Below are positions 7,993 to 46,170 of a stretch of 64,000 nucleotides of DNA, one piece after another. The notes under the pieces are model-generated. The model did not search any database. It was given only the letters and a program-made list of their open reading frames with translations, and was not told the DNA's origin. The translations under genes and the position numbers were made by a program. The DNA comes from Rhodocyclales bacterium (GTDB taxonomy: Bacteria > Pseudomonadota > Gammaproteobacteria > Burkholderiales > Rhodocyclaceae): contig JACRLX010000050.1 of the NCBI GenBank assembly GCA_016235165.1, positions 79,665-143,664 of the forward strand, written 5' to 3'. How positions within the stretch are numbered: position 1 is the first letter of the stretch; every line of letters starts with the position of its first letter.

Positions 7993-8013
7993 TTTCTGGT
8001 TGATGCTGGCTGG

Positions 8014-9144: not shown

Positions 9145-9265
9145 GGTTTCTCCTGAATTCGGTGACGCGACTACGTGATGGAGAGCTATCGGGATTCGAT
9201 GCTTCCGCTGACAGCGATGAAGCTGCCCCATGCCAGCGCCGCGGGCGGCATTTTGACCCGCAGGG

Positions 9266-9730
9266 CTATTTCTTCACGGCTCGGCTCGCGGCCTCGAAAC
9301 CGCCCTTGGCTTTCCATTCGGCGAATCCGCCCTGGAGAATGCGCACATTTTCGTACCCGGCGACGCGCAAGGCGAAACCGGCCTGGGCGGAAAGCGATCC
9401 GGTATTGCAATAGATCAGTACCGACTTGTTCTTGGGTATGGCCGCCCGCTTTTCCAATACCTGTCGCCATTCCAGATTGACGGCACCCGGAATATGGTCC
9501 TTGACGTACTGTTCCTTGTCGCGTGCGTCGATGACATGGAAACGCGGCCAATCTTCCTTGGGAATCTGCTCCGGAAGCATCGTTGCGCCGCCGTAATCGA
9601 CGAATGCAAGATAGTCTTCCATGACCTTGATCGCATCGCTATCGGCATCCGCCCGGGCGGACGGGGGCAGCAAGGTCAAGGTGCAGGCGAAAACGAGGGC
9701 GAGAGGCTTCAAAAGCGCAAGAGCATGCAT
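9266..9730 (-). CDS. Periplasmic rhodanese-like protein
   Basis: Signal peptide; rhodanese motif FHVIDARDKEQYVKDHIPGAVNLEW...LIYCNTG. Confidence 0.85.
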   Translation of the reverse strand: MHALALLKPLALVFACTLTLLPPSARADADSDAIKVMEDYLAFVDYGGATMLPEQIPKEDWPRFHVIDARDKEQYVKDHIPGAVNLEWRQVLEKRAAIPKNKSVLIYCNTGSLSAQAGFALRVAGYENVRILQGGFAEWKAKGGFEAASRAVKK

Positions 9731-9809
9731 GGCTTCACTTTCAGGGATGGGTCAGGAAATGAATGTGCATTCACACGCGGCCGATTGCATGGTTCAAGCC
9801 CGCAATGGA

Positions 9810-10946: not shown

Positions 10947-10983
10947 TGCCGGATGCATGCCTTTTCGTCGAATTGCCTGAGCG

Positions 10984-12285
10984 CTATTTGCCTGTCTGAC
11001 CACCAGTCTGTTGCGGCTTGAGCCGCGCCAAACCCAGAATGTGCAGCACCCACTTCTCGAAGATTGGCTCGGTGCCGCCCCGGCGCATCTTGTACATGAA
11101 GTACTTCTCGAAGGCGATCTTCGCCCAGTGCGCCCACTTGCCCTGCTTGGACCAGGTCACGTTGCGCGGTGGCATCTGCGGCTGGGCGATGAACACCGCG
11201 CCGGTATCGCCGAAATCGGCGATGCAGAAGGCATTCCAGGTGGCTTTCGCCTGCGGCGCCCGTCCTTCCAGTTCGGCGTGGATGTTGGCGACCACGGCGC
11301 TGACCATGGATTCGATCATGTAGCCGGTCTTGGGCGGGCCGGTCGGCACCGGCGTCGGATCGACCGGCGGCAGGGCGATGCAGGCGCCGGCGGCATAGAT
11401 GTTGGGGTACTTCGGGCTGCGCTGGTGTTCGTCGACGATCACCAGGGCCTTGGGATTCACCAGACCGTCCACTGCCGCCACCGGCGCGACGCCACGGAAG
11501 CTGGGCACCAGCATGGCGTGGGCGAAGGGGAGTTCGTGGTCCTGGAGAGGCTGCCCAAAGCGGTCGACTTCCTCGGCGAACAGCTTGCCTGCTTCGATCT
11601 TCCTGATCCTGGCGTTGGTGATCCACTTGATGTGGCGGTGGCGGAATTCGTGTTCCATCATGCCTTTCGAATCGCCGACGCCGCCAATACCCAGGTGCCC
11701 GATGTAGGGCTCGGCAGTCACGAAGGTGATCGGCACGCGGTCGCGCACCCGATGCCGGCGCAATGCCGTATCGAGGATGGCGACGTACTCATAGGCGGGG
11801 CCGAAGCAACTCGCGCCCTGCACGCCGCCGACAATCACCGGGCCGGGATTGGCGATCAATTTCTGTACGTCGGCATGGGCTTTTTCCGCATCGTCGACGC
11901 TGCCGATCCATTGGGTATGGCCGTCCTGCGGACCCAGCCCCGGTACATCCTCGAAAGCACAGCGAACCCCGGTGGTGATCACCAGATAGTCATAATCGAC
12001 CTGACGATCGCCCTGAACATGAAGGCGGTTGGCTGCCGCGTCGATCCGTTCGACCCGTCCGGCAATGAAGCTGATGCCATGCTTTTCCAGACTGGGTCCA
12101 GCCGGGAAGGTGACTCCCTCGCGCTTGCGCCAGCCGACTGCCAGCCAGGGAATCGAGGGCACGAACTGGAAATATTCCTGTTCGTTGATCACCGTGACCG
12201 CATGTTTGCGATCGAGCAGCGCCCGCAGTTCGTAGGCGGCCGGCATGCCGCCGAGCCCGGCGCCAAGTATCACGACATGAGCCAT
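10984..12285 (-). CDS. Sulfide:quinone oxidoreductase-like FAD/NAD(P) oxidoreductase
   Basis: MAHVVILGAGLGGMPAAYELR...VPSIPWLAVGWRKREGVTFP; SQR-type sequence. Confidence 0.82.
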   Translation of the reverse strand: MAHVVILGAGLGGMPAAYELRALLDRKHAVTVINEQEYFQFVPSIPWLAVGWRKREGVTFPAGPSLEKHGISFIAGRVERIDAAANRLHVQGDRQVDYDYLVITTGVRCAFEDVPGLGPQDGHTQWIGSVDDAEKAHADVQKLIANPGPVIVGGVQGASCFGPAYEYVAILDTALRRHRVRDRVPITFVTAEPYIGHLGIGGVGDSKGMMEHEFRHRHIKWITNARIRKIEAGKLFAEEVDRFGQPLQDHELPFAHAMLVPSFRGVAPVAAVDGLVNPKALVIVDEHQRSPKYPNIYAAGACIALPPVDPTPVPTGPPKTGYMIESMVSAVVANIHAELEGRAPQAKATWNAFCIADFGDTGAVFIAQPQMPPRNVTWSKQGKWAHWAKIAFEKYFMYKMRRGGTEPIFEKWVLHILGLARLKPQQTGGQTGK

Positions 12286-23494: not shown

Positions 23495-25938
23495 CTATGT
23501 GTGCGGGTCCTGCTCGAAAGATGGCCGGTCTCGCAAGTGATCGCATGCCGGGCGTTCCTCATTCGCCACGGCACGCGAGGCCTTTTCATGGCTGCGCGAA
23601 GCGGCTGGGTTCAGCACCCTTTTTCGTTCTTCTAGCCAGGTTCGTCCCTGCTTTCGCAAGTAGTTATTGCGAAACCAGTCAAACTGGCCATCTCCATCGG
23701 AAAGACGCCGGATCAGGCCGAAGTGGCTTCTGCTTTGGAAACGGAATCCCTCGGGGTCGGCGATCAGCTCACCAGCAATGAAATGTTCTCCCGACGAGGG
23801 GTCTCCACCACCATTTGGATAACCGTCCTCGATCCATCCAAAGCCCATGCCGGTACCGAACACGAATACAGCAAAGCGACGCATGACGTGATTCGGATCG
23901 TCGGGCATGCGATGCGTCTCGTAATCGCTGCCGTCACCGTAGAACGACCGGTCGCATAGGGCAATCTCTGCCCCCCATTGCCAGCGTTCGTTGGAAACTT
24001 CCGCATCGAATGTGCTTCGACTGACGGGCTCCTTTGCGGAGCGCTCCAGGTTCAGCGCCAGCAACCGCCGCAGGATTTCCTCGTCGGGCATGTCGGGTGT
24101 GTAGTCGTTCCAGCCGTAGGCGGCGGCGACTGCCGCGTCGAGCGCCTTGTGCGCGTTGTCCAGCCAAGCCGGGCGGGCGTTGTAGAGATTGGTCAGGGTG
24201 CGCTTCTTCAGCTCGGCCTCGAAGCCGGCCCTGGCCAGGCCTCGAAGATGCTTCCGCTGCCGACAATGCGGTCGAGCACCTTGCGGTTGGCGCCGCCGCG
24301 TACCGAGTTGGTGCCGACCAGTCCGGCCGCCATGCACTTCCCGCTTTCGACTTGCGCCCTTGCCTTCTCGAACCAGTAGGTGACAAAGTCCGCTCCGCCC
24401 GGCACACGGCCTTCGTAGCACTTGCGCAGTGCTTCGGTGTAGTCGGCGCCGAGTTGTCCGCGCATCACCTTGTCCCCAAGAAACGGCGGATTGCCGACAA
24501 TCGCGTCGCAGGCGGGCCATTCAGCCTCGCTCGCCGTGCCGTCAGCGCCGACTTTCAGCAGCGCGTCGCGGTTCTCGATGGTGTCGAGCGGGCGCAGGAC
24601 GGGCTGCGTTGCATACGGGTAGCCATTCCTCAACATCCATTGCAGCTCGCCGATCCAGACCGTGACTCGCGCCAGTTCGGCGGCATAGGGGTCGAGTTCG
24701 ATGCCGAGCACATTGGCCGGCGATACCTCGATGCCCACTTGGCGTTGCAGGCCCAGCGCTTCGGCTTCGGTATTGGCGCGGCGCTCCAGGTCCTTCAGCG
24801 CCTTCAGCGCGAGGTAGAGGAAGTTGCCGCTGCCGCAGGCCGGGTCGAGCACGCGGTAGTTGCGCAGGCGTTCGAGGTGATGCTGGAAGATCGCGGTGGC
24901 GTCCTTGTGCGCCTTGTCGCCATGCTTTTTCGATTTGGCCAGCAGCGCGGCGATCTTCTCCTTCGCGGCCTGCCATTCGGCCGTGAGCGGGCGCACGATC
25001 ACCGGCTCGACCAGGCGCATGATCGTTGCCGGGTCGGTGTAGTGGGCGCCGAGCTGCGAACGTTTGGAAGGATTGAGGCCGCGTTCGAACAGGGTGCCGA
25101 AGATCGAGGGGTCGATATTGCGCCAGTCCATGCCGGCCGCGCGTTGCAGGGCGGCGATGTCGGCGCGCTCCAGCGGCGGCACGTCGACGCGGGCGAAAAG
25201 GCCGCCGTTGAACCAGGCGATGGTCTCGTCGCCGTAGTCGCCGCCGTCGCGCATGGCGGCGAACAGCGCGCTCAGCCGATTCGCGGCCCGCGCCGGATCG
25301 TCGGCGGCGCGGTTCAGCAGGCCGGTGAACAGGCCGCGCGGCAGCAGGCCCTCGTCCTCGGCGAACATGCAGAACAGGCACTGGATCAGGAAGTGAGCCA
25401 CCGGCTGGGCTTCCAGCCCGCGCTGACGCAGGGTTTCGGCCAGCGCGCCGAACTGGCCAGCGGCTTCTTCGGTGATGGCGGCGAGCGATTTCACCGGGCG
25501 CAGCTGCTCGGGATCGGTGAACACCCAGCGCAGGGTTTGCAGATTCTCGGGAGCGCCGATGTCGGCGATGGCGATATGGCGCGGCTGGTCCGGGTAGCCG
25601 GTAAAGGCGGTGTGGATCTCGATGATCTCGCGGTCGCTGACCACCAGCAGCGGCGGGTTTTCGAGTTCCAGCGCGTAATCAGTCAGCTGCTTCAGCGCGG
25701 CGCGCAGGTCGCGCCCCGGGCACTTGTTTTCCCAGCCGAAGTGGCCGCGCTTCCATACATCGGCCCAACCATCACCGCCGCTGGCCTTGCCGGCGCCGCG
25801 CTCGAAGCAGTAGTGGTCGAGATCGCGCGGCTTGTCCACGCCAAGCAGATCGCACAGGTCGTCGAAATGGCCTTGCGCCCCGGCCCTTTCGGTAAGCGGA
25901 TTGTTCTGCCAGAGGGCGATGAATCTTTCAGGTGTCAT
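23495..25938 (-). pseudogene. DNA methyltransferase (N6-adenine, class I SAM) with internal deletion and frameshift near 24235
   Basis: N-terminal ORF has NPPF motif (CDAIVGNPPFLGDKVMRG) but breaks after SGSIFEAW; C-terminal segment ELKKRTLTNLYNARPAWLDNAHKALDAAVAAAYGW continues in another frame. Confidence 0.7.
24528..24557 (-). repeat. KVGAG-type dispersed repeat (CTGAAAGTCGGCGCTGACGGCACGGCGAGC)
   Basis: In frame in methyltransferase: LKVGADGTAS, just before NPPF motif. Confidence 0.78.
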
Positions 25939-26023
25939 GCCGCGATTGTGCCGCAAAAACTCCCGCAGGGACGCAGAACGCTGGCGCCGAAACCGCGGCA
26001 ACCGTGACGACGACGTGCTTGCC

Positions 26024-27359
<1,336 letters not shown>

Positions 27360-27373
<14 letters not shown>

Positions 27374-28808
27374 AGGGGATCTCGATGCGGAAGGTGGTGT
27401 TGCCCGGCTCGCTGTCCACGGTCAGCCCGCCATTGAGCTGCTTGACGATCTGGTAGACCACCCAGAGGCCGAGGCCGTGGCCCTTCTCGCGACCGCTGGC
27501 GAAGGGCTCGAAGAGGTGGGCCATCCGGCTGTCGGGGATGTGGGCGCCATCGTTGCAGACCGACAGGTGCAGCATCCCGTTCCTTGCATCCATGCCGAGG
27601 CGTACCTTGCCGCCGTGATCGGCGGCGGCCACGGCATTCAGCAGCAGGTTGAGCACGATCTGTCGCAGCAAGGTCGCCGGCAGCGGCAGCGGGCTTTGCA
27701 GCCGGCCGCCGACGTGCAGCGTCACCTTGCGGGCGGCGGCTTCGGCGTCGACCAGGATCAGCAGGTCGTCGATGTCGGCCGGGGCGAAGGAGCGGTCCTT
27801 GGCCTTGGTCTCGACCAGCAGCGCCGCCACGGTGTTGCGGATCTGGTCGAGGCCGCGTTCCAGCAGGGAGAAGGTTTCCAGCGCCAGCGGGTCGCCGTTG
27901 CCGTGGCGGCGATAGGTGGTGATCGCGGTCAGCATGCCGCCCAGTGGATTGTTGATCTCGTGCGCGATGCCGGCCGAGAGGCGGCCCACGGCAGCCAGGC
28001 GCTGCGAGGCGATCATCTGTTCCTCCAGTTCCTGCTTCTCGCGCAGTTCGCCGACCATGCGGCGGAAGGCATCGCCGAGCTGGCCGATCTCGTCCTTGTT
28101 CTGCGGCAGATCGGGCAGCCGGGCGGAGCCGAGTTCGCCGGGCACCTGGCGCATGGCATCGGCCAGTGCCAGCAGGGGCGCTCCGGTCTGGCGCGCGGCG
28201 AACCACGACACCGGCAGGATCAGCAGCAGCACCAGCAGGGTGACGAAGGCCGCACGCCCAACCAGGCCGATGAAGCGCGGCACGAAGGAAATCTTCGAAT
28301 AGCCGAGGATCACGTGGCCCAGCGCGACACCGTCGGCCACCAGCGGCGACATGACGAAGTAATGGACCGAATCGGCCGGCTCGATCACCTGCTGTTCGGT
28401 TGACTTGCGGTCCATCAGCGCCGCCCGCAGGCGTGCGTAGGCACCGCCCTGCCGGGCCGGGCTGGCACCGATCGGGAAATCGCGCGGCCGGCTGGAGACG
28501 AACACGCGGAATTCGGCATCGGTCACCATGACCACGTCGGCCTGCAGTTCGGGGGCGATGGCGGCCGGGTCGCGCGCCGATTGCAGGATCTCGTAGGCGC
28601 GCCAGATGTCGTCGTGCAACACTGGCGTAACCAGGGTGTTGGCCAGCACCCGCGCCAGGCTCTTGGCATGGGACTCCAGGTTCTGGCGCATTTCGTCGTA
28701 CTCGCGCGTGACCAGCGCCGCCGTGACGGCCAGCGCGGTGCCGAGTACCGCCGCCATCACCCGCAGCGGTATCTTCCAGCGCAGCGAAAGGTCGTCGAGC
28801 GCGATCAA
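27360..28808 (-). CDS. Membrane sensor histidine kinase
   Basis: HAMP-like region, RLSAGIAHEINNPLGG H-box, GHGLGLWVVYQIV; TTG start overlapping upstream stop. Confidence 0.88.
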
Positions 28809-29683
28809 ACCTTGCCCACCCGCATCGCCATGCGCGCGATGCCGTCGAACAGCGCGGGCTGGCCGGCGACGAAGCCGTCCAGGCTCAACAGCCGCAGCAG
28901 TTGCGCACCCTCGGGGTCGGCCGGCATGTCGAGCAGGGCGCCGCGAAACTGCCGCATTTCCGCCGCGGGAATGTCGCGGCGGGCGACAAAAGGCGTATGG
29001 CCGAAATCGGGCGAGCGTTCGATGATGCGGGTGGCGCTGGTCAGGCCGGGGTGGAACTCGGCCAGGGTGTCCCAGACATAGCCATCCACCGCGCCGCCGT
29101 CGGCCAGGCCCACCCCCACCGCCTCGACCACCTTGCGGTGCGCCCAGGTGAAGAAGCTGCGCGAGAAGAAGGTGGTCGGGTTCTCGCCCTGGCTGGCGAG
29201 GCGGTATTGCGGATAGAGGAAGCCCGAATTGGAATCCGGGTCCGAATAGGCGAATACCTTGCCGCGCAAGTCGGCCAGGCTGCCGGTCTTGCGATCGTCG
29301 GCCGGCACGATGAGGTAGGACTGGTAGTAGGGGCGCCCGCGCCACACCGGTACCGCGACCAGCCGCAGATCATGCCGGTAGCGTACATAGGGATAGCCGC
29401 AGATCCATGCAAAGTCGAGCTTGCCGCCGCGGATCAGGTCCATCACCTCGCGATAGCTGCCACGCTGGACGAAGACCACGGAACGCTTCAGTCGGCGCTC
29501 CAGCCACACTCGCCAGCGCGTCAGGAAGCTCATCTGGTCGTCAAGGAATACCGGTGTCAGGCCGACTCGCAAGCCGCCCTGCTCGGCGCGCGCAGGCAGC
29601 AGCGGCAGGGCGGCCGCAACCAGCGCGGAGCGCAGGAAACATCGCCTGCGCAGGCGGACCGGACTGCGATCATCGTCGTTCAT
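28805..29683 (-). CDS. PhnD-like periplasmic substrate-binding protein (sensory)
   Basis: Signal peptide; LRVGLTPVFLDDQMSFLTRWRVWLERRL...LDFAWICGYPYVRY...DPDSNSGFLYP. Confidence 0.85.
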   Translation of the reverse strand: MNDDDRSPVRLRRRCFLRSALVAAALPLLPARAEQGGLRVGLTPVFLDDQMSFLTRWRVWLERRLKRSVVFVQRGSYREVMDLIRGGKLDFAWICGYPYVRYRHDLRLVAVPVWRGRPYYQSYLIVPADDRKTGSLADLRGKVFAYSDPDSNSGFLYPQYRLASQGENPTTFFSRSFFTWAHRKVVEAVGVGLADGGAVDGYVWDTLAEFHPGLTSATRIIERSPDFGHTPFVARRDIPAAEMRQFRGALLDMPADPEGAQLLRLLSLDGFVAGQPALFDGIARMAMRVGKV

Positions 29684-29795: not shown

Positions 29796-29984
29796 GCAAC
29801 CGGCGGCGCGGCAATTTTGCGGACCGACACAATCCCCTTGATCGACAAGGAATTGGCCGTCGCGGCGACGGCGTGGTCCGGATGTTGCTGAAAGGAAACG
29901 GCGGCTTGATCCGGGTTGCCCTTGGGCGCCGGATCGCCGGGACAAAAACCGAATCACGGCAGGCACAAAGAGGAGGCAAGACAC

Positions 29985-30695
29985 ATGAGCGAAGAACTGA
30001 GGGTTTCGCCCATCGAAACCCGTGGCGTCGCCGGCAAGCGCCGGTTTGCCATGGTGGTCGATACGCGGCGCTGCATCGGTTGCATGGCATGCCAGGTCGC
30101 ATGCAAGGCAGAGTACGACACGCCGCTGGGCGTCAACCGGACCTGGGTGCCTTACAAGGTGGTCGGCAAGTATCCCAATGTCAAAAAGCAGTTCCTGCCA
30201 CGGCTGTGCAACCACTGCGACGACGCGCCCTGCGTGCGCAACTGCCCGGTCGAGGCGACCTTCAAGGTCGAGGACGGCGGCTTCATCCTGCAACGCTACG
30301 AGCGCTGCATCGGCTGCCGCAGCTGCATGGCGGCCTGCCCCTACAACGCGCGCTTCATGCTGCCCTCGCACCGCACCTACACGCCGATCACCAACGTGGT
30401 CGACAAGTGCACCTTCTGCTTCCACCGCGTGACGCAGAACCTGGTGCCGGCCTGCGTGCAGACCTGCATCGGCCGTTCGCGCGTGTTCGGCGACCTCAAC
30501 GATCCAAACAGCGAGGTCTCCTATCTGGTGGCGAAGAACGCGACCCAGGTGTTGCGCCCGGAAGAAGGCACCAAGCCGCACGTCTTCTACATCGGCGCCG
30601 ACCGCAACGCCACCGAGTTCGGCCGCGACGCCTACCGCCAGCCCGAAGTGATGGAGCTCGAGCGCTCCGCCTTCAAGCGCAACTTCAAGATCTGA
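29985..30695 (+). CDS. 4Fe-4S electron-transfer subunit (PsrB/TtrB/SoeB-like)
   Basis: Four ferredoxin Cys clusters (CIGCMACQVAC, CNHCDDAPCVRNCP, CIGCRSCMAACP, CTFCFHR...C). Confidence 0.9.
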   Translation: MSEELRVSPIETRGVAGKRRFAMVVDTRRCIGCMACQVACKAEYDTPLGVNRTWVPYKVVGKYPNVKKQFLPRLCNHCDDAPCVRNCPVEATFKVEDGGFILQRYERCIGCRSCMAACPYNARFMLPSHRTYTPITNVVDKCTFCFHRVTQNLVPACVQTCIGRSRVFGDLNDPNSEVSYLVAKNATQVLRPEEGTKPHVFYIGADRNATEFGRDAYRQPEVMELERSAFKRNFKI

Positions 30696-30705
30696 GAGGG
30701 ACATC

Positions 30706-31563
30706 ATGGGTGATTACGTCTGGTTTCACGATGTGTCGTGGCACGCGAGCTACGCCGTCTATTTCTTCGTCATCGGCATCCTCGCCGGTCTGTCCTTCAT
30801 GTCCTACGGCTCCTGGATCACGCCGGCATTGCGTCCGCTGCGCGAAAAGGCGGCCTATGGCTCGCTCGGCCTGCTGGCGCTGGGCGGCCTGCTGCTGATC
30901 GGCGACCTGTCGCAGCCGATGCGTTTCCTCAACATCCTCAATCCCGGCTACCTGAACTTCAGCTCGCCGCTGGCCTGGGGCGCGCTCAACATCGTCGCCT
31001 TCGGCATCTGTTCGGTGCTCTACATCATGGCTCTGAAGAAGGGCGACGAGGCCAGGGGCAAGCTGCTGGCGCTGGTGACGGCGCTGCTGGCGCTGGGCCT
31101 GCCGGTGTATACCGGCTTCGACCTGACGGTGCACCAGTCGCGCCCGGTGTGGAACTCGCCGATCATTCCGGTGCTGTTCGTCGCCATGGCGATCGCCTCA
31201 GGCTCGGCCGTCGGTTCGCTGCTGGCGATGGGCAATGACGAGGCGCAGAAGGTCCTGCGCCAGTACATGCTGTGGTCGGCCGGCGCGGTGTCGATCATGC
31301 TGGTCTCGGTGATGGGCACCACCAACTACGGCGGCTCGGCCCAGGAACTGACCTTCATGATCATGACCACCGGCACCATGGGCCTGCTCTTCGTCGGCGT
31401 CGGCTTCCTGGCCGGCAGCGTGGCCCCGGCGGTGCTGCTGTTCGCGCCAATGGGCAAGAGCCAGGGCGTCCTGATGGTTTCCGCCCTGCTCATCCTGGTC
31501 GGTGGCGCGGCCCTGCGCTATGTGTTGCTGATGGCCCCGCAACAATTGCAGACCCTGTATTGA
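30706..31563 (+). CDS. NrfD/PsrC-like membrane anchor
   Basis: Hydrophobic polytopic protein between FeS and molybdopterin subunit genes. Confidence 0.85.
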   Translation: MGDYVWFHDVSWHASYAVYFFVIGILAGLSFMSYGSWITPALRPLREKAAYGSLGLLALGGLLLIGDLSQPMRFLNILNPGYLNFSSPLAWGALNIVAFGICSVLYIMALKKGDEARGKLLALVTALLALGLPVYTGFDLTVHQSRPVWNSPIIPVLFVAMAIASGSAVGSLLAMGNDEAQKVLRQYMLWSAGAVSIMLVSVMGTTNYGGSAQELTFMIMTTGTMGLLFVGVGFLAGSVAPAVLLFAPMGKSQGVLMVSALLILVGGAALRYVLLMAPQQLQTLY

Positions 31564-31586: not shown

Positions 31587-34226
31587 ATGGAAATGCCAAA
31601 AGTCACACGTCGTACCTTTCTCAAGGTCAGCGCCACCACCGGCGCCGCGGCCGCGGCCGCGCCGCGCCTGCTCAACGCCATGGAAACCCAGCTGGGCGGC
31701 AAGGATTTCGGTCCCGTCACCGGCGCCGAGCGCAAGGCGATCCCGATCAACTGCCATGTCTGCAACATCCAGGACGGCGCCATCGCCTATGTCGAGAACG
31801 ACCGCGTGGTCAAGCTGGAAGGCAACCCGGAGCATGTCTCGACCCGCGGCCGACTGTGCGCCAAGGGCAATTCGGGCATGTGGTACAGCTATGACCCGGA
31901 CCGCATCCTGTATCCGCTGAAGCGCGTCGGCGCCCGCGGCGAAGGCAAGTGGAAGCGCATCAGCTGGGACGAGGCGCTGACCGAGCTGGCGGCCAAGCTC
32001 GACGCCGCGATCAAGGAGGATCCCAACACCATCATGCTGAAGTTCGGCCGCCAGCGCACCGGCGGCGTGATCGACCGCTTCATGCATACGCTGGGCTCGG
32101 CCACCATCGTGAACCACACCTCGGTCTGCGAATCGTCGAAGAAGATCGGCATGGAACCGACCTGGGGACCGGATATCGAAACGCCGGACTTTGCCAATGC
32201 CAAGTACGTACTCAACTTCGGTTCCAACATCCTCGAAGCCGCCTACTTCCACAATCCGCTGTCGCAGCGCATCACCGAAGGCCGCGTGGACAACCACATG
32301 AAGATCGTCACCTTCGATGTGCGCCTGTCCAACACCGCCGGCTTCTCCGACGAATGGATCCCCGTCCATCCGGCCACCGACGGCGCCGTGGCGCTGGCCA
32401 TGGGCCACGTGATCCTGCGCGAGAACCTCCAGGATTCGGACTTCATCAACACCTGGACCAATGTCTCGGTCGACGAGCTGAAGAAGCACTATCAGCAATA
32501 CACGCCGGAGTGGGCCGCGAAGATTTCCGGCGTGCCGGTGGAAACCATCGAGCGTATCGCGCGCGAGTTCGCCACCACCAAGCCGGCCACGCTATTTACC
32601 TATCGCGGCCCGGCCAAGCACCTTTACGGGTCCTACAACGAGAAGGCCTGCATGATGTTGCCGATCATGACCGGCAACATCGAGACCCAGGGCGGCTACT
32701 GCCTGCCGCGCGGCATGGGCTGGCCGCAGCCGAGTCCGCAGCCGGGCAAGCCGAAGAAGGCGTCCTACCTCTCGCATCCGCCGGATTACCCGCTGGCCGG
32801 CCACAAGGTCAGCCACCTGGTGCCGTTCTGGATCGCCGACGGCAAGCAGAAGATCAACGTCTACATCACCTACCAGGACAACCCGGTCTACACCAATCCG
32901 GGCGCCATGGCGGTGTGGGGCAAGCTGTTCAAGGACGAGAAACTGCTTCCCTACCTGGTCTCGATGAGCCCCTTCATGGGCGAAGAGACGGCGCTGGCCG
33001 ACCTGATCCTGCCCGACTGTCCCTACCTTGAGCGCTGGGAGCCGGAATCGATGCCCAACTCGCTGTGGCCCTGGCTAGGCATCCGCCAGCCGGTGCACAA
33101 GTCGCTCGGCGAATCGCGCGAGAACCGCATCATGATGCGCGACATCATCTGGAAGCTCGACCCGGACGGCAAGCGGGGCATGAAGCAGTTCTGGGATTTC
33201 AAGGATGGCGAAGCCTACATGCGCCACCACTTCGACAACATCCCAGGGCTCAAGGAAGCCGGCGGCCTCGACTTCCTCAAGAAGCACGGCGTCTGGCCGA
33301 TTTACGGCAAGCTCGATCCGAAGTCCGGCAAGGTCACCGACAAGACCGGGCGCGAAATCAAGGCCGAGTACGGCCTGTTCAAGAAGGAGCTGTCGGCGGC
33401 CGACATGGCCGGCACCGCGACCGACAAGAACGGCGTGATCAGCAAGAACGGCAAGGCCATCGGCGTCAAGCGCAACGGCAAGAACTACGTCGGCTTTCCC
33501 ACCGGCAACCGCATCATCAACGTGCGCGTCGACCAGTGGGCCGAGTACGGCTTCAATCCGATGCCGACCTTCAAGCGCATCCCGTGGCACGAGACCATGA
33601 AGGAGGACGAGTTGATCCTCACCACCTTCAAGCTCAACGTGCACAAGCAGTCGCGCACGGCGGCGGTCAAGTGGCTGGCCGAAATCGCCCACAGCAACCC
33701 GCTGTGGATCAACCAGGCCACGGCGAACAAGATCGGCGTCAAGACCGGCGACCTGGTGCGGGTCGAAAGCCGCGCCGGCCACCTGGTGACCAAGGCCTAC
33801 GTCACGGAAGGCATCCACCCGAAGACGGTGGCGATTCCGACCGGCTTTGGCCACTGGGAATACGGCCGCCTGGCGACGCTCAAGCTCAAGGAGAAGAAGG
33901 GCGACGCCAGCCACGGCCAGGAAGACCCGGATCTCAACAACGTCTGGTGGGATGACAAGGGCGTTCATCCCAACAACATCATTCCGGTGGTGGCCGATCC
34001 GATCGGCGGCTCGCAGGGCTGGTACGACACCGTGGTCAAGGTGAGCAAGGCCGGGCCCAACGACAAGTACGGCGATTCGCAGGGCGACTGGCAGAAGCAC
34101 TACGATGCCTACAAGGAGACCATGCGCTATGCCTACACCGGCGACCTGCACCGCAAGATGCATCCGGAGATGGCCTCATGGGCGGGTCCGGCCAGCGTCA
34201 AGGCGCACGAAGGCGGCGGTCACTGA
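31587..34226 (+). CDS. Molybdopterin-dependent oxidoreductase catalytic subunit, Tat-exported (PsrA/PhsA/TtrA/SoeA-like superfamily)
   Basis: TRRTFLKVS Tat motif; N-terminal C-x2-C-x3-D-x27-C; DMSO-reductase-family sequence. Confidence 0.88.
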   Translation: MEMPKVTRRTFLKVSATTGAAAAAAPRLLNAMETQLGGKDFGPVTGAERKAIPINCHVCNIQDGAIAYVENDRVVKLEGNPEHVSTRGRLCAKGNSGMWYSYDPDRILYPLKRVGARGEGKWKRISWDEALTELAAKLDAAIKEDPNTIMLKFGRQRTGGVIDRFMHTLGSATIVNHTSVCESSKKIGMEPTWGPDIETPDFANAKYVLNFGSNILEAAYFHNPLSQRITEGRVDNHMKIVTFDVRLSNTAGFSDEWIPVHPATDGAVALAMGHVILRENLQDSDFINTWTNVSVDELKKHYQQYTPEWAAKISGVPVETIERIAREFATTKPATLFTYRGPAKHLYGSYNEKACMMLPIMTGNIETQGGYCLPRGMGWPQPSPQPGKPKKASYLSHPPDYPLAGHKVSHLVPFWIADGKQKINVYITYQDNPVYTNPGAMAVWGKLFKDEKLLPYLVSMSPFMGEETALADLILPDCPYLERWEPESMPNSLWPWLGIRQPVHKSLGESRENRIMMRDIIWKLDPDGKRGMKQFWDFKDGEAYMRHHFDNIPGLKEAGGLDFLKKHGVWPIYGKLDPKSGKVTDKTGREIKAEYGLFKKELSAADMAGTATDKNGVISKNGKAIGVKRNGKNYVGFPTGNRIINVRVDQWAEYGFNPMPTFKRIPWHETMKEDELILTTFKLNVHKQSRTAAVKWLAEIAHSNPLWINQATANKIGVKTGDLVRVESRAGHLVTKAYVTEGIHPKTVAIPTGFGHWEYGRLATLKLKEKKGDASHGQEDPDLNNVWWDDKGVHPNNIIPVVADPIGGSQGWYDTVVKVSKAGPNDKYGDSQGDWQKHYDAYKETMRYAYTGDLHRKMHPEMASWAGPASVKAHEGGGH

Positions 34227-34324: not shown

Positions 34325-35191
34325 ATGCTGAAAACTGAACTGACACTGGATGAAGGCGAGGAAGTCGGCGCCGGCGAGACGGCGGCGGTACTGGCTTCGC
34401 CCGGAGAAACGGCGACCGAGTGGCGTGCCCGCGCCGAGGTCTATCACCTGCTCTCGGGCGTCTTCGTCGAAGAGCCGGGCCGCGAATTCATCGAGGCATT
34501 GCGCGCGCCGGCGGCACTGGCCGACCTGGCCGCCACCGGCCTGCGCTTCGACGAGGACTTCCTGGCGACGCCGCTGGACGTCCTGCTGGAAAACCTGGCG
34601 ATCGAATACACCACGCAGTTCGCCTGCACCGGCGGCTTTCCGCCGGTCGAGTCGGTGCGCCTGACCGGGCGCTACAAGCAGCAGCCGAATTTCGATGTCA
34701 TGCAGACCTACCAGCGCCTGGGCTTTGCGCTGCACCCCGGCCGCTTCGAGGTGTTCGCCGACCAGCTCGGCGTCGAGCTGATGTTCGTCGCCAAACTGCT
34801 GGAGCGCGGCGCCGCCGCCCTCGACCAGGGCGATGTCGCCGCCCAGCGGCGCCTGGACAAGGAAATCAAGCGCTTCTGGAGCCAGCACCTCGGCCGCTGG
34901 GTGCGCGGCTACAGCCAGTTGATCGAGCGTACCGCCCAGCATTCCTTTTACCGCGAAATGGCGCGCTTCCTCGGCGGCTTTGCCGGCGAGGAAATCGAGG
35001 CCATGGGCCTGCGCATCGAGGATGCCGACCAGGCGCGGCTGGAAGTGCCGAAAACCGAAGTGCGCGTCGAGTTCAATCCCAATGAGCCGGTGTGCAACGG
35101 CTGCATGACGGATGCGCTGTCGACGACGCTGGCGGCGCCCGACAACCTGCGACGCTTCGAGGAGCTGCGCGACCTCGGCGGCTTGCGCTAG
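34325..35191 (+). CDS. TorD-like molecular chaperone
   Basis: RAEVYHLLSGVFVEEPGREFIEALR... TorD/DmsD-like helical protein. Confidence 0.75.
   Translation: MLKTELTLDEGEEVGAGETAAVLASPGETATEWRARAEVYHLLSGVFVEEPGREFIEALRAPAALADLAATGLRFDEDFLATPLDVLLENLAIEYTTQFACTGGFPPVESVRLTGRYKQQPNFDVMQTYQRLGFALHPGRFEVFADQLGVELMFVAKLLERGAAALDQGDVAAQRRLDKEIKRFWSQHLGRWVRGYSQLIERTAQHSFYREMARFLGGFAGEEIEAMGLRIEDADQARLEVPKTEVRVEFNPNEPVCNGCMTDALSTTLAAPDNLRRFEELRDLGGLR
34358..34388 (+). repeat. KVGAG-type dispersed repeat (GAGGAAGTCGGCGCCGGCGAGACGGCGGCGG)
   Basis: In frame in TorD-like N-terminus: EEVGAGETAA. Confidence 0.72.
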
Positions 35192-35200
35192 GGGCCGGCC

Positions 35201-35644
35201 ATGATCCTCGATCTCGCCACGCCCAGGGAGCTGCCGCCGCCGGATCGCCAGGTGCTGTCCCAACTCGACTGGAAAGAAGCCCAGATCATGTGGGACAGCA
35301 ACGACCTGGGCGCCCTGCACGATTGGTTCAACGAACGCTGGTCGCGCCTGATCCGCAACAGCCTGCTCGGCACCAGGGATCCCGAGGCCGAATTCCTGCA
35401 AGGGCTGGCCTTCGCCACGCTGGCGCTGTTCTTCACCCAGAACCAGAACCAGGAAGGCGCGCTGCTGCTGATCGACGACGCGCAGATGGCGCTGGCCAAA
35501 TACGCCCCGCGCTTTCTCGGCGTGAATGTCGCACCGATACTCGGCGCCTTGCAGGAACTGCGTCCGCTGCTGGTCGGCCTGGCGCCCGATGCCGACTGTC
35601 CGCTGTATCCTTTCGTCTATCCGAAATTCGAGTACGCCGCTTGA
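35201..35644 (+). CDS. Hypothetical protein of molybdoenzyme cluster
   Basis: Complete ORF in co-oriented gene string; no family recognised. Confidence 0.6.
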   Translation: MILDLATPRELPPPDRQVLSQLDWKEAQIMWDSNDLGALHDWFNERWSRLIRNSLLGTRDPEAEFLQGLAFATLALFFTQNQNQEGALLLIDDAQMALAKYAPRFLGVNVAPILGALQELRPLLVGLAPDADCPLYPFVYPKFEYAA

Positions 35645-35648
35645 TCCC

Positions 35649-36380
35649 ATGACGCGTGATGACATCGCCGTTACGGAAGGCTTGCCCGCCGCGGCGGCCG
35701 AAGCGCCCGCCGGGCAAAAGTCGGCGCCGGCGGTACGCCGCTGCGTGGCTTACGAGGAGGGGTGCACGGTCGATGCCGACGACCTGCTGTTCGACGCGCC
35801 CGGCGTCGAAGCCGTCGCCGCCCTGTGCGCCGGCATCGTGGTCGACGCCGGCGACGAACAGCGCGTCGCGACCTTGCTCGCCGCCGGCGCCGATTGCGTC
35901 TTCGTCGGCGCCGCCGCGGTGGAGGACAGCGCGGTGGTGGACCGGCTGGCAAAGGCCCACGGTGCCGAACGCATCGGCGTCTACGCCCGGCTCGGGCGAC
36001 AGAGCGTCAGTTGGTCCTTCGAGACGGTATCCAATGCCGATTTCAAGACCGTCACGCCCTCGCATTGCGAGCCTGCCTGGGAAGTGCTGCGCGCCGACGG
36101 CAGCGGCAGTGGTGCGCTGGCATCGTGGTGGCTGAAGGCAATGCGCGAACTGGGCGCCACGCGCTTCCTGGTGCAGGTGGATATCTGCGATGACACCGAC
36201 CTCAACCTCTGCGCCGGGCTGGTCGATGAGCTCGGCGACGCGCTGTGGATCGGTCCGCTGGTGCAGCCCGCGCCGAGACTCGCCGAATGGGTCGGTTACG
36301 GCCAGTGCCGCCAGCTGGTGCTGCCGCCGACCGTCTACGCCCGCCGCGCCGACCTGCTCGCGGCAACGCCGGCAGCATGA
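35649..36380 (+). CDS. HisA-like TIM-barrel protein
   Basis: VDAGDEQRVATLLAAGADCVFVGAAAVEDSAVVDRLAKAHGAERIGVYARLGRQSVSWSFETVSNADF resembles HisA/HisF half-barrel phosphate-binding repeats. Confidence 0.5.
   Translation: MTRDDIAVTEGLPAAAAEAPAGQKSAPAVRRCVAYEEGCTVDADDLLFDAPGVEAVAALCAGIVVDAGDEQRVATLLAAGADCVFVGAAAVEDSAVVDRLAKAHGAERIGVYARLGRQSVSWSFETVSNADFKTVTPSHCEPAWEVLRADGSGSGALASWWLKAMRELGATRFLVQVDICDDTDLNLCAGLVDELGDALWIGPLVQPAPRLAEWVGYGQCRQLVLPPTVYARRADLLAATPAA
35714..35743 (+). repeat. KVGAG-type dispersed repeat (GCAAAAGTCGGCGCCGGCGGTACGCCGCTG)
   Basis: Inside HisA-like gene in an alternative frame: QKSAPAVRR. Confidence 0.65.
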
Positions 36381-36847
36381 AACCGCTGCCCTGCTGGTTG
36401 CTGGCGCTGGCCGGCCTGGCGGCGGCCGCAGCGGCGCAGGCACAAGCCAGTCTCAAGGACAAACCGCAACTGCTTGCCGCGCTCGCCGCCAGGCCGCCGT
36501 GCTGCGTGATCGATGGTCGCGGCGTGGCGAGCCGCCAGCGCGAGGCGCTGGACGATGCCCTGGCTTGGCGCAGCGACCTGGAAATCAGCCCGACGGCGAC
36601 CGTGATCGTGGTCGCCGACCGCGACCAGGATGCGCTCGCCATCGCCCGTACCCTCGAACGCAAGTACCCCGGCAAGCCGATCCTGGCGGTCAAGGGCGGT
36701 GTCGCCGCCTGGAAGGCGACCAAGCTCGCCATGCTCGTGCGCAGCGCCGACGGCGGCGCCAGCGGTCTGGTCAATTTCGTGATTCCGGCCAACACCTGCG
36801 AGCACGGCAAGCCGCTGCAAGAGCTGCGTCCGGACAAGAAGAAGTGA
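36377..36847 (+). CDS. Exported rhodanese-like protein
   Basis: Signal peptide; ILAVKGGVAAWKATK rhodanese C-terminal signature; ATGA overlap. Confidence 0.6.
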   Translation: MKPLPCWLLALAGLAAAAAAQAQASLKDKPQLLAALAARPPCCVIDGRGVASRQREALDDALAWRSDLEISPTATVIVVADRDQDALAIARTLERKYPGKPILAVKGGVAAWKATKLAMLVRSADGGASGLVNFVIPANTCEHGKPLQELRPDKKK

Positions 36848-37947
36848 ACATCGCCGCGCCCGAGTTCGATGTCGCGCGCTGCGTGCGCTACCGCTATCGC
36901 TACAGCGAATGCACGCGCTGCCAGGACGCCTGCCCGCACCAGGCGGTGACCCTCACCGACAGCGGTGCGGCAATCGAAGCGGACAAGTGCCGCAACTGCG
37001 CCCTGTGCGTTTCCGCCTGCCGTACCGGCGCTTTCGCCGCCGCCAACTTCAAGCCCATCGACATGTTGCGCCAGGCGATCAAGTGCGAAAACTTCAGCAT
37101 CGCCTGCGCGCCTTCGGGCCATGCCGCCGATGCCGTGGTGCCTTGCCTCGGAGCGCTCGACGCGCCGCTCCTGGCCTACCTCGAAAAGCGCCGCCTGCCG
37201 ACACGCCTGCTCGGCGCCAGCCGGTGCGCCGATTGTGCGCACGGCGCCACGGGCGCGGCGCAACTTGCCGCCAACCTGGAAGCCGCGGCCGAGTTGCGCG
37301 CCGCCGCCGCGCCCGAGGAATGGCTGCCGGTCGAAGTCGTCACCGATGACGATCCCGCGACCAAAGCGGAACCGCAGCGCTTTGCCGCCGGCCGGCGCCA
37401 CCTGTTCCGCCGCCTGCTCGGCCGCGGCGTCGACGAAGTTGCCGCCGCGGTCGAGGCCAAGCCGGCCGCCGTGCCGGTGCCCGACAAGGCCATCCGCGCC
37501 GGCGCCTATGCGCTGACCGAACAGCGCGAGTTGTTGCAGATCGTCGCCGCGCGCAAGGACGGCCAGCCGTATCACGTCTCCATCCACGAGGCGCTGCCGG
37601 CGCTCGACATCCGCATCGGCCCCGGCTGCACGGTCTGCGAAGCCTGCTTCCGGGTCTGCCCCACCGGCGCCATAGGCATCACGGAAAATCCCGGTGACTG
37701 GGCGCTGGAGTTCAAGCGCGACCGCTGCGTCGGCTGTGCCGTCTGCCTCGAAGTCTGCCAGCCGCGTGTGCTCGACGCCGCGGCCGACTTCGATCTGACG
37801 CCAGACCTGCCGCCGAGGCTCCTGTTCAGGCTGGCCAAACAGCGCTGCGACCGCTGCGACCGATTTTTCGTATCGCCGCATCCGGAAAAGACCTGCAAGG
37901 TGTGCAGCGACGACCAGGATGCCTTCGCCGCCATCTTTGGCACATAG
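36844..37947 (+). CDS. Multi-cluster 4Fe-4S ferredoxin-type protein
   Basis: CTRCQDACP, CRNCALCVSAC, CTVCEACFRVCP, CVGCAVCLEVCQ and a terminal CDRCD...CKVC; GTG start. Confidence 0.85.
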   Translation: MNIAAPEFDVARCVRYRYRYSECTRCQDACPHQAVTLTDSGAAIEADKCRNCALCVSACRTGAFAAANFKPIDMLRQAIKCENFSIACAPSGHAADAVVPCLGALDAPLLAYLEKRRLPTRLLGASRCADCAHGATGAAQLAANLEAAAELRAAAAPEEWLPVEVVTDDDPATKAEPQRFAAGRRHLFRRLLGRGVDEVAAAVEAKPAAVPVPDKAIRAGAYALTEQRELLQIVAARKDGQPYHVSIHEALPALDIRIGPGCTVCEACFRVCPTGAIGITENPGDWALEFKRDRCVGCAVCLEVCQPRVLDAAADFDLTPDLPPRLLFRLAKQRCDRCDRFFVSPHPEKTCKVCSDDQDAFAAIFGT

Positions 37948-37963
37948 AAAGGGAACAGCGATC

Positions 37964-38365
37964 ATGGAATGGGAATTCACCCCGGAAGACGTGGTCAAGG
38001 GACGCTGCGGCTACGCCCTCGCCGATTTCCGCCAGGGGCTGGCCGAGGAAGTGCGGCAGAACATCGGCGCCGACGGTGACGCCTTCATCCGCGCCTACCA
38101 CCTGATCTACGACCTCTGCTACGCGCTGGCGACCAGCAAGGATCTCGACGCCCATCTCGGCGCCTATGCCTACGATCCGCCTACGGTGCAGTTCCTGCGC
38201 GAACTGGCGCCGGCGATGGAAGCCAACGTCGACATGCTCGGCGCGATCCTGCAACGCCAGATCATGGATCGCGTCGAGGCCGGCACGCCATTGCAGAGCG
38301 CGGTCGGCGAAGTTGCCGACTGGCACAGGCAATCTGTCAGCGACCATCCGCCGGCGACGCATTGA
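37964..38365 (+). CDS. Hypothetical protein of molybdoenzyme cluster
   Basis: Complete ORF with good RBS in co-oriented string. Confidence 0.6.
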   Translation: MEWEFTPEDVVKGRCGYALADFRQGLAEEVRQNIGADGDAFIRAYHLIYDLCYALATSKDLDAHLGAYAYDPPTVQFLRELAPAMEANVDMLGAILQRQIMDRVEAGTPLQSAVGEVADWHRQSVSDHPPATH

Positions 38366-38411
38366 CCCCGCCGCCCCTGGCCGAATCCGTTTTCGACTGG
38401 ATGGATCGAAC

Positions 38412-39119
38412 ATGGACGCACGAAACGATAGGGTAGGGAATGCCAGGTCGAGGTTCTACCTGTCGATGGCGAGGGCGTTCATGGCCCCCACGGAAACCCC
38501 CGTCGCGGCGGCCATGCTGTGTGGGAATTTGACGGAGACACTGGCCGAGCTCGACCACGAGATCGGGTATGGACTCGCGACCGAAATCGATGCCTGCCAG
38601 GTCGAGTTCGACCTGATTGGCGATGCCGACGATCTGCTGCTGCACTATTGCTCCCTGTTCATCCTGCCGCCGCGTCGAGTCAAGATCAATGTCGGTGCCT
38701 ACCTCGACGGCACCTGCAATGGAGCCACCGCGCGGGCGCTGGCAAGCTGTTATGCGGCGGGTGGCGCGAATCACGCCGGAGAGTTCCCCGATCTGGCCGA
38801 TCACATGGCCTTGCAACTCGAATTTGTCGCCCGCCTATTTGCGCGCGCGGTTCCCGGTGGCGCGCCGGGGCGGTTCATCGACCGCTACCCGGCATCCTGG
38901 ATCGCGCCGCTGATCGGCGATATCTGGTGTGCCGGGACGGATCAGGATTTTGCAGGCAAGCCCTATCTCGCGCTTGCCATCCTGCTGTGCAAGGCGCTAG
39001 CCTGCGATGCCGACAGCAAGTGCGACGCGCTGGCGGAGGTTGCGGGAAAATATTCGCTCGGCGTCCCATCGCCGCTGCGTGGCACGGCACCGAACGCTTG
39101 CCGGGCGTGCAAACGATGA
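38412..39119 (+). CDS. TorD-like chaperone (second)
   Basis: RSRFYLSMARAFMAPTETPVAAAM...LLHYCSLFILPPRRVKINVGAYLDG. Confidence 0.65.
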   Translation: MDARNDRVGNARSRFYLSMARAFMAPTETPVAAAMLCGNLTETLAELDHEIGYGLATEIDACQVEFDLIGDADDLLLHYCSLFILPPRRVKINVGAYLDGTCNGATARALASCYAAGGANHAGEFPDLADHMALQLEFVARLFARAVPGGAPGRFIDRYPASWIAPLIGDIWCAGTDQDFAGKPYLALAILLCKALACDADSKCDALAEVAGKYSLGVPSPLRGTAPNACRACKR

Positions 39120-39275: not shown

Positions 39276-39725
39276 ATGAGCACGATCCGCAACCTGCTAC
39301 AGAACAAGAAGCCCCTCGTCACCGCGCATATCGGCCAGACGGTCAACGAGGCGGTCGCCCAAATGACCGGCGCCGATGTCGGCGCCGTCCTCGTCCTCGA
39401 CGATCTCGGGCGTATCGCCGGCATTTTCACCGAGCGTGACTGCCTGCAAAAAGTCACCCGGCCCTGCCTCGATCCCTGCGCCACGCCACTGCGCGAGGTG
39501 ATGACGACCAGCGTGCGATTTGCCAAGCCGGACCAGGCCATCGAGGACTGCCTGCGCCTGATGACCGAGCGCTACTTCCGCCACCTGCCGGTGCTCGCCG
39601 AAAATGGCGACATCCTCGGCATCGTCTCCATCGGCGACCTGGTCAAGGCGCGCCTCAGCGAACAGGAATTCGCCATCGACCAGCTGGAGCATTACATCGC
39701 CGACAGCCTGCCGGTGGGACGCTGA
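39276..39725 (+). CDS. CBS-domain pair protein
   Basis: VNEAVAQMTGADVGAVLVLDDLGRIAGIFTERD...HLPVLAENGDILGIVSIGDLVKA. Confidence 0.9.
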   Translation: MSTIRNLLQNKKPLVTAHIGQTVNEAVAQMTGADVGAVLVLDDLGRIAGIFTERDCLQKVTRPCLDPCATPLREVMTTSVRFAKPDQAIEDCLRLMTERYFRHLPVLAENGDILGIVSIGDLVKARLSEQEFAIDQLEHYIADSLPVGR

Positions 39726-44712: not shown

Positions 44713-46170
44713 TCAATTGCGCAGGCCCGCGGCCACGTCGCGGAATGCCGCCAGCGCCGCTTCCAGGTGATCGATGATCTCCTGTTGCAGCACATCGGGC
44801 GGCGGCAACTGATCCAGATCGTCGAGGCTGTCGTCTTTGAGCCAGAAGATGTCCAGGCTGGCCTTGTCGCGGGCAACGAGTTCATCGTAAGCGAAGTGGC
44901 GGAAGCGTTCGCTCTCCTTACGTTCGTGCCGGTTCTCCGGGTTGTAGCAGGCGACGAAATCGCGCAGGTCATCGGGCTTCAGCGTCTTGGTCTTGAGCGT
45001 GAAATGCTTGTTGGTGCGCAGATCGTAGATCCACACGCCCTGGGTATGCCGCTTGCCATCCTTTGGCTTGGCATCGAAGAACAGCACGTTGGCCTTGACC
45101 CCCTGGGCATAGAAAATGCCCGTGGGCAGGCGCAGCAGGGTATGCACGTCGCAGGTTTCCAACAGCTTGCGGCGAATCTTCTCGCCCGCGCCACCCTCGA
45201 ACAGCACATTGTCGGGCAGCACCACGGCGGCCTTGCCATCCAGCTTCAGCATGCTGACGATGTGCTGGAGGAAGTTGAGCTGCTTGTTCGAGGTGGTTTC
45301 CCAGAAGTCCTGTCGCTCGTAGGTCAGCGCATCCTTATCCTCCTCGCCTTCCTCGTTGGTGATGGTCATGCTGCTCTTCTTGCCGAAAGGCGGATTGGCC
45401 AAGACATAATCGACCTTTTGCCGCGGCTCGGCGACCAAGGCATCGGAGCGTTCCACCGCCGGTTCGCCGTCGAGCTCTCCGACGTTGTGCAGAAACAGGT
45501 TCATCAGGCACAGGCGCCGCGTATTCGGCACGATCTCGTTGCCGTGGAAGGTCTGGTCGCGCAGGAACTCCTTTTGCCGCTTGTTGAGCTTGGCACCGGG
45601 GCGGTTCAGCCAGTTGTAGGCGCCGAGAAAGAAGCCGCCGGTGCCGCAGGCCGGATCGCCGATGGTCTTCATCGGCTCGGGGCGCACGCAGGTCACCATC
45701 GCCTCGATCAGGGCGCGCGGCGTGAAGTACTGTCCGGCGCCGCTCTTGGTGTCTTCCGCGTTCTTCTGCAACAGTCCTTCGTAAAGATCGCCCTTGGTGT
45801 CGGCGCCGAGGCTGATCCACTTCTCGGCGTCGATCATCTGCACCAGTCGCGCCAGCTTGGCCGGATCCTGGATCTTGTTTTGCGCCTTGAAGAAGATCGC
45901 CCCCAGCATCCCCGGCTCCTGGCCCAGCTTGTGGAGGACGGTCAGGTAGTGGGCCTCCAGCGGTTCGCCGGTCTTGGCGCGCAGGCTGGCCCAGTCGCAA
46001 CTGCGCGGTACATGGGTGTTGCGGCCGTAGGGCGGCTGCGCGTACTCGTGGGCGAGCTTGAGGAACAGCAGGTAGGTGAGCTGCTCCAGGTAGTCGCCAT
46101 AGCCGACGCCGTCGTCGCGCAGAGTGTGGCAGAAGTTCCAGATTTTCTGGACCAGGGTGGAAGCGTTCAT
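44713..46170 (-). CDS. hsdM: Type I restriction-modification methyltransferase subunit
   Basis: DPACGTGGFFLGAYNWL and NPPFGKKSS motifs; HsdM N-terminus. Confidence 0.95.
   Translation of the reverse strand: MNASTLVQKIWNFCHTLRDDGVGYGDYLEQLTYLLFLKLAHEYAQPPYGRNTHVPRSCDWASLRAKTGEPLEAHYLTVLHKLGQEPGMLGAIFFKAQNKIQDPAKLARLVQMIDAEKWISLGADTKGDLYEGLLQKNAEDTKSGAGQYFTPRALIEAMVTCVRPEPMKTIGDPACGTGGFFLGAYNWLNRPGAKLNKRQKEFLRDQTFHGNEIVPNTRRLCLMNLFLHNVGELDGEPAVERSDALVAEPRQKVDYVLANPPFGKKSSMTITNEEGEEDKDALTYERQDFWETTSNKQLNFLQHIVSMLKLDGKAAVVLPDNVLFEGGAGEKIRRKLLETCDVHTLLRLPTGIFYAQGVKANVLFFDAKPKDGKRHTQGVWIYDLRTNKHFTLKTKTLKPDDLRDFVACYNPENRHERKESERFRHFAYDELVARDKASLDIFWLKDDSLDDLDQLPPPDVLQQEIIDHLEAALAAFRDVAAGLRN

Follow-up and report, generated by a model that had tools for sequence, protein, structure and literature searches.

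A conserved gene cluster joining a PhsA-like molybdoenzyme, a HisA-type barrel and an AioX-type sensor in Rhodocyclaceae

Gene content and layout of the locus

We analysed a stretch of 64,000 nucleotides (the window; positions 79,665 to 143,664 of contig JACRLX010000050.1, forward strand) from assembly GCA_016235165.1 of a Rhodocyclales bacterium, a genome of 4.47 Mb (G000) whose nearest named relatives are Sulfuritalea and other Rhodocyclales metagenome-assembled genomes. Our subject is a molybdoenzyme (A) and the unusual string of accessory genes behind it, which is genuine and travels with this one particular enzyme. A preliminary description had reported seven co-oriented, partly overlapping genes; the open reading frame (ORF) listing of the window contains all seven on one strand at the positions given in Table 1, and the overlaps, ATGA at 36377 and GTGA at 36844, were verified as four bases each. 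The conserved unit begins upstream of the string first described, at 29985, with the genes for an Fe-S subunit (B), an NrfD-type subunit (C) and A itself, and three regulatory genes (R, S and X) at 26024-29683 are divergent from this operon. Beyond its cluster motifs, the polyferredoxin Fdx4 has a central CxxC region and C-terminal zinc-ribbon-like Cys pairs, while the small protein hyp2 gave no match by sequence (Pfam) or by fold (best E 1.4 in the fold search).

Table 1. Predicted features of the cluster, in window coordinates
Feature	Position	Strand	Basis
R, NtrC-type sigma-54-dependent response regulator (AioR/ArxR-like)	26024..27373	-	ORF; homologue conserved
S, sensor histidine kinase (AioS/ArxS-like), start codon uncertain	27360..28805	-	ORF; homologous loci; Azoarcus KH32C
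X, periplasmic binding protein, AioX/ArxX type	28805..29683	-	PDB match AioX 6esv
Sigma-54-like -24/-12 promoter, TGGTCCGGATGTTGC	29874..29888	+	96 bp upstream of the Fe-S subunit gene
B, four-cluster Fe-S electron-transfer subunit (DmsB/TtrB/PsrB type)	29985..30695	+	Profiles
C, NrfD/PsrC-type membrane quinone-reactive subunit	30706..31563	+	Pfam NrfD, 5.8e-31
A, catalytic subunit of molybdoenzyme exported by twin-arginine translocation (TAT)	31587..34226	+	Profiles; Cys Mo-ligand motif VCESSK
TorD1, TorD-family chaperone	34325..35191	+	Pfam Nitrate_red_del, 7.5e-16 (above cut-off); conserved
hyp1, conserved small protein	35201..35644	+	Weak DUF309 match, E 3.2e-4, below cut-off
HisA-like, HisA/HisF-like barrel	35649..36380	+	Pfam, hhalign, AlphaFold2, Foldseek
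Rhodanese-like, exported protein without the usual active-site Cys	36377..36847	+	Alignment; Pfam via homologues
Fdx4, cytoplasmic polyferredoxin	36844..37947	+	Four ferredoxin-type cluster motifs
hyp2, conserved all-helical small protein (MEWEF...MLGAILQR)	37964..38365	+	Conservation
TorD2, TorD-like gene	38412..39119	+	Pfam Nitrate_red_del, above cut-off

Conservation and co-occurrence

We searched 299 Rhodocyclaceae genomes for A and for the HisA-like protein and detected each in 27, one of the HisA-like matches being weak and broken (G063). All 26 genomes with a sound HisA-like gene also have A, so that the pairing of barrel and molybdoenzyme to which the preliminary description drew attention holds in 26 of the 27 A genomes; in the sole exception (G258) the contig ends inside hyp1. 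The order B-C-A-TorD-hyp1-HisA-rhodanese-Fdx4-hyp2 is unchanged in every Rhodocyclaceae locus long enough to judge, the only departure being two loci (L041 and L034) with no match to the rhodanese-like protein. Across the homologous loci of this family B is 89–97% identical, hyp1 is 57–93% identical among 27 homologues, and a homologue of R (annotated in Azoarcus KH32C as a sigma-54 dependent regulator) adjoins the cluster in nearly all loci for which that flank is available. The ratio of non-synonymous to synonymous substitution rates among close relatives is ~0.1–0.35, lower for the Fe-S subunit and 0.56 for one hyp2 pair, values that indicate purifying selection on these genes. Of the seven genes first described, six (TorD, hyp1, HisA-like, rhodanese-like, Fdx4 and hyp2) form a fixed operon behind B-C-A.

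Outside the Rhodocyclaceae, the complete set occurs in the same order in five genomes of a second family (f127). Two further families (loci L080 and L081) have an enzyme that is 60% and 57% identical, respectively, with the HisA-like, rhodanese-like and Fdx4 genes still adjoining; hyp1 and hyp2 were not detected in these two loci, which carry in their place a glycosyl transferase and P-loop ATPases. In L080 the latter are two NUBPL-type Fe-S transfer ATPases by Pfam, and L081 has homologous ATPase genes. Both loci also encode homologous proteins 5' of the Fe-S subunit gene (L080 1240-1719, L081 12974-13627), which we take to be archease-like. In two distant lineages (L105 5606-6643, L081 13456-14445) a moaA-like molybdenum-cofactor gene lies either within the cluster, where X and the Fe-S subunit gene flank it, or adjacent to the cluster. 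A search of 349 genomes sampled from the phylum gave no further family with the cluster, and searches at order level near G359 and G382, covering one or two genomes each, yielded nothing new. A scan of genome contigs with the HisA-like protein alone returned solely close Rhodocyclales relatives, and the papers searched contained no description of this cluster.

These accessory genes could constitute a general cofactor module, for bis-molybdopterin guanine dinucleotide (bis-MGD) or Fe-S insertion, that is unrelated to arsenic, any arsenic link then belonging to the enzyme only. The Fe-S transfer ATPases, the moaA-like genes, the polyferredoxin and the TorD chaperone are all in keeping with this, and we regard it as a serious if doubtful contender. 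It is harder to square with the distribution of the HisA-like protein, which among the 299 genomes searched, apart from the broken match in G063, is restricted to those that have A and therefore does not behave as part of a general module, or with the exported rhodanese-like protein, which is ill-suited to a cytoplasmic cofactor role.

The second TorD gene, which had been counted as part of the string, is missing from homologous clusters and was rejected as a member of the module. Its single relative found (32% identity) lies beside ArxA in locus L043 (13562-14101), so TorD2 may be a leftover arxD-like gene, and is probably an orphan outside the module. Directly 3' of it, at 39276-39725, is a gene for a two-CBS-domain-like protein with no homologue seen in the conserved clusters. 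Large genes of DNA methyltransferase/restriction type (named by eye) lie on either side of the region, at 24208-26001 and 44713-46170, and may mark a mobile region.

The HisA-like barrel and the rhodanese-like protein

The proposal of a HisA-like TIM barrel has gained support at both profile and fold level. The window protein scores 22.3 bits (E 1e-4) on Pfam His_biosynth (PF00977), compared to a cut-off of 23.6; its homologue in L079 passes at 23.8 bits, those in L080 and L081 align to another region of that profile, and the hhalign comparison with E. coli HisF has an E-value of 5.5e-6. An AlphaFold2 model built from 28 sequences has a mean pLDDT of 89.3, and all 50 best PDB matches listed by Foldseek are HisF/HisA or designs derived from them (probability 1.00), with ~15% identity and TM-scores of ~0.6 that show a remodelled barrel. 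In the hhalign alignment nothing corresponds to the beta-5 catalytic Asp of HisF, and the predicted beta-1 strand of the window protein, outside the profile alignment and read by eye, is AVRRCVA, with no Asp. Conserved instead are a block SNADF..PS...WE and the motifs WW and DDxDLN. A working histidine enzyme was rejected on account of the missing beta-5 Asp, and the conserved unit contains no histidine genes. By alignment and model, then, the protein is a HisA/HisF-type barrel that appears to have lost the catalytic residues of the histidine pathway.

The rhodanese-like protein has a signal-peptide-like N-terminus and scores 15.3 bits (E 0.028) on Pfam PF00581, for which the cut-off is 22.2 bits; its homologues in L081 and L080 score 30.2 and 27.1. 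The active-site Cys of rhodaneses is missing in all aligned copies, which have [AG]DxD-like or other non-Cys sequence at that position, and the earlier suggestion that the protein delivers sulfur is accordingly unsupported. Nearly all copies end in a tail of the form F/Y-x-[IV]-P-x-x-x-C, represented in the window protein by the conserved Cys141 within an F[VI]IPxxxC motif. A CC pair at 42-43 is confined to Rhodocyclaceae.

Family placement of the molybdoenzyme

Molybdoenzyme A has the traits of PhsA/PsrA enzymes, namely a Cys Mo-ligand, an NrfD subunit and a TAT signal. Its best NCBIfam profile is PhsA (NF012032), at 355 bits or about half the cut-off of 694, with the ArrA, AioA, DmsA and TtrA models scoring lower, and its best PDB matches are the Thermus polysulfide/thiosulfate reductase 2vpw and ArrA. 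On the ArrA model (NF041714) A scores 179 bits against a cut-off of 1600, while the ArrA encoded in the same genome scores 942 and ArrA proteins within this genus ~940–1020; on the AioA model (TIGR02693) it scores 31.9 bits against a threshold of 359. At the position of the ArrA motif RGRY the window protein has FGRQRTGG, most members having [FYW]GR[NQ]R[TS]GG, and the GRGWG-type motif of ArxA is absent. True ArrA (with RGRY) and ArxA (with GRGWG) occur in some of the genomes that carry A.

A quick LG+G4 tree, which included no characterised PhsA, PsrA or TtrA sequences and no AnrA or SbrA, placed the 18 window-type A sequences in one clade (SH-aLRT 100) outside ArrA and ArxA, which group elsewhere. 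Near this clade lie a 57–60% identical group and two divergent sequences; the branches are long and deeper placements are therefore unsure. Motif, score and tree thus led us to reject A as a known Arx or Arr enzyme. The ArxA of Azoarcus CIB was likewise rejected as an example of the same system, its paper describing a classical arxB2ABCD cluster. Two other sets of molybdoenzymes came to light in these comparisons: ~42% identical enzymes of other families in L084, L087 and L088 (with the motif YGRHKAS in L084 and L087), and a fourth group, ~45% identical and accompanied by B and C subunits, in L095 (G132 C254:2323-4074) and L090, which sits on long branches near the A clade.

The profile and PDB matches raise the question of whether A is a sulfur-compound enzyme, that is, a polysulfide or thiosulfate reductase or oxidase of the PsrA/PhsA kind to which the rhodanese-like partner hands over sulfane sulfur, as Sud does for Psr. 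A rhodanese fold within the operon and Sulfuritalea among the nearest named relatives could be taken in the same sense. We nevertheless judge this decidedly improbable: A falls well short of the PhsA cut-off, the rhodanese-like copies lack the usual catalytic Cys, the sensor is of AioX/ArxX type, which bound neither thiosulfate nor tetrathionate (PMC5908839), and the neighbourhood of the cluster is enriched in arsenic genes. Sensor system and neighbourhood, both described below, point to arsenic rather than sulfur, and sulfur oxidation of the Soe/Psr-like kind was rejected as first choice on family scores, sensor type and the Cys-less rhodanese.

Sensor, promoter and arsenic gene neighbourhood

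The best PDB match of X is AioX (6esv; 217 bits, E 2.8e-63), compared to 130 bits (E 6.7e-37) for ArrX. All seven residues of the AioX pocket (Tyr88, Cys106, Tyr131, Ser161, Ser163, His192 and Asp210) are present in the window protein, where Cys99 corresponds to Cys106, and apart from one Ser163Thr substitution the pocket is kept in 30 of 30 homologues. X also has the Val56-Phe57 loop that is typical of AioX/ArxX and absent from ArrX, and it is ~52% identical to the X encoded beside an ArxA gene in L044. Regulation of the operon by an X-S-R system with a predicted arsenite-binding protein, as for ArxA, is thus indicated by sequence. Of the oxyanions tested in PMC5908839, arsenite is reported as the only one bound by AioX and ArxX, and the ligand of each sensor as the substrate of the molybdoenzyme to which it belongs. 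The sigma-54-like element facing the operon scores 19/23 in the window (p 0.083 versus shuffles), and 18 of 23 other loci scanned have an element scoring 21–23/23 (p ≤ 0.01) at a similar position. A second X-S-R trio adjoins the cluster in L046 (26-5823) and L048 (303-3879), and that of L046 is divergent from another molybdoenzyme (L120 type) with weak PhsA and ArrA scores.

On either side, the cluster of Azoarcus KH32C, L041, L031 and L057 has neighbours of arsR type, arsC or acr3, the arsenite pump gene; acr3 also adjoins it in L106. In L041 the stretch 3' of hyp2 (7437-11450) encodes an arsR-type regulator, a permease, a thioredoxin-like protein, arsC and acr3. In 17 of the 34 carrier genomes an acr3 gene is no more than 50 kb away. 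Of the 19 genera represented, 5 have one at up to 10 kb, 7 at up to 20 kb and 11 at up to 50 kb, compared to expectations of 0.21, 0.41 and 1.0, and the observed proximity was reached in none of 200,000 simulations, in which cases on different contigs were scored as misses. The observed distances were read by hand from tables. Six genomes, from three genera, have ArrA/ArxA-type genes no more than ~18 kb from the cluster; in two genomes of the window's genus Arr lies 13–14 kb away.

Given this neighbourhood, A could also be a respiratory arsenate or antimonate reductase, or an enzyme of thioarsenate or antimonite, regulated by As(III) all the same but working in the opposite direction or on a related substrate. 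The DMSO-reductase family does include ArrA, PMC13284237 cites AnrA and SbrA as antimonate reductases, and Arx has been reported as bidirectional in vitro (PMC6620896). We consider such an enzyme unlikely, since the loop of X is of the AioX/ArxX type and not of the ArrX form, and the RGRY of ArrA is replaced in most members.

Proposed function

We favour the view, with reasonable rather than strong confidence, that A and its partner subunits form an undescribed, arsenite-responsive respiratory complex, probably an arsenite oxidase, served by accessory proteins dedicated to it. Several observations weigh against it. The named families closest to A are of PhsA/PsrA type, reducers of sulfur compounds. 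AioX-like X-S-R trios with the arsenite-pocket Cys adjoin the molybdoenzymes of L084, L087 and L088 as well, and with the case of L046 this means that the sensor alone does not fix the substrate. The acr3 gene is common, and lies far off on the same contig in G137, G100 and G015, while none of the ars genes searched for had a match in the window. The host encodes elsewhere a true ArrA with RGRY (G000 C14:28096-30636), on a contig that also carries acr3, and an AioA (C13:304134-306452) above the cut-off. Finally, the roles suggested for the accessory proteins are read from location and conserved residues.

Starting from the gene content and order, co-occurrence, sensor pocket, neighbourhood, barrel fold and missing catalytic residues observed here, we infer the substrate and direction of A, the ligand of X and the role of every accessory protein as follows. 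As(III) would bind X via its Cys, whereupon S would phosphorylate R, which would then turn on the operon. TorD and the cytoplasmic accessory proteins would aid the loading of A with bis-MGD and Fe-S clusters, and loaded A would be exported by TAT. In the periplasm A would most likely oxidise As(III), passing electrons through B and the NrfD subunit to quinone, although the reverse direction or a related arsenic, antimony or thioarsenic substrate is possible. The HisA-like protein, its HisF catalytic Asp lost, may be a binding or scaffold protein in maturation, outside histidine metabolism, and the rhodanese-like protein may be a periplasmic thiol protein acting on the exported enzyme or its substrate. 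The Fe-S transfer ATPases of L080 and the moaA-like genes of L105 and L081 lead us to favour cofactor maturation for the cytoplasmic genes; of the earlier suggestion of an undescribed maturation or sulfur-oxidation module, the first half is thus plausible for these genes and the second finds no support.

The known respiratory arsenic catalysts of the DMSO-reductase family are Aio, Arx and Arr, and these are used to read arsenic metabolism from genomes. More tentatively, and at somewhat short of even confidence, we suggest that the cluster encodes a further class of respiratory arsenite oxidoreductase, apart from these three, that depends on accessory machinery of its own. This would comprise a barrel of HisA type recruited to maturation without a catalytic role, where it might hold the nucleotide portion of bis-MGD, together with a polyferredoxin and a rhodanese-like thiol protein in the periplasm. 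At an E-value threshold of 1e-60, which may miss some ArxA, 9 of the 34 carrier genomes match ArrA/ArxA and 5 match AioA, and most match neither. If the suggestion is true, most of the 34 carriers examined, lacking any match to Aio, Arx or Arr, would be overlooked when genomes are read for arsenic metabolism, and a barrel of histidine biosynthesis would have been rebuilt, its catalytic Asp gone, as an accessory factor of a respiratory enzyme.

Comparison with known systems

The cluster resembles the Arx system (arxXSR / arxB2ABCD) in its divergent X-S-R trio, TAT-exported molybdoenzyme, Fe-S subunit, NrfD-type anchor, TorD chaperone and arsenic neighbourhood. It differs in gene order (B-C-A rather than B2-A-B-C), in an A subunit that is placed apart from the ArxA/ArrA branch and has no GRGWG motif, and in the addition of hyp1, the HisA-like and rhodanese-like proteins, Fdx4 and hyp2. 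With Arr (arrAB, arrDE) it shares a Cys-ligand molybdoenzyme, a TorD chaperone and a 4Fe-4S accessory gene, but A has no RGRY and scores ~180 bits on NF041714. PsrABC/PhsABC is the closest family by profile and PDB match and has in common the Cys Mo-ligand, the NrfD anchor and a sulfur transferase fold nearby, whereas A stays under the family cut-off, the sensor is different, the rhodanese-like protein is without catalytic Cys and the accessory set is distinct. The HisA-like protein has the fold of HisA/HisF (PF00977), without the beta-5 catalytic Asp and, in the window, without an Asp in beta-1. A last point of comparison is Thioalkalivibrio jannaschii ALM2, in which an As(III)-induced operon with genes for a glycosyl transferase and a rhodanese-related protein lies beside arx/ars (PMC6620896). 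Compared by description alone, this operon shares with the L080/L081 module its arsenic context, the rhodanese-related protein and the glycosyl transferase, and may be that version of the module.

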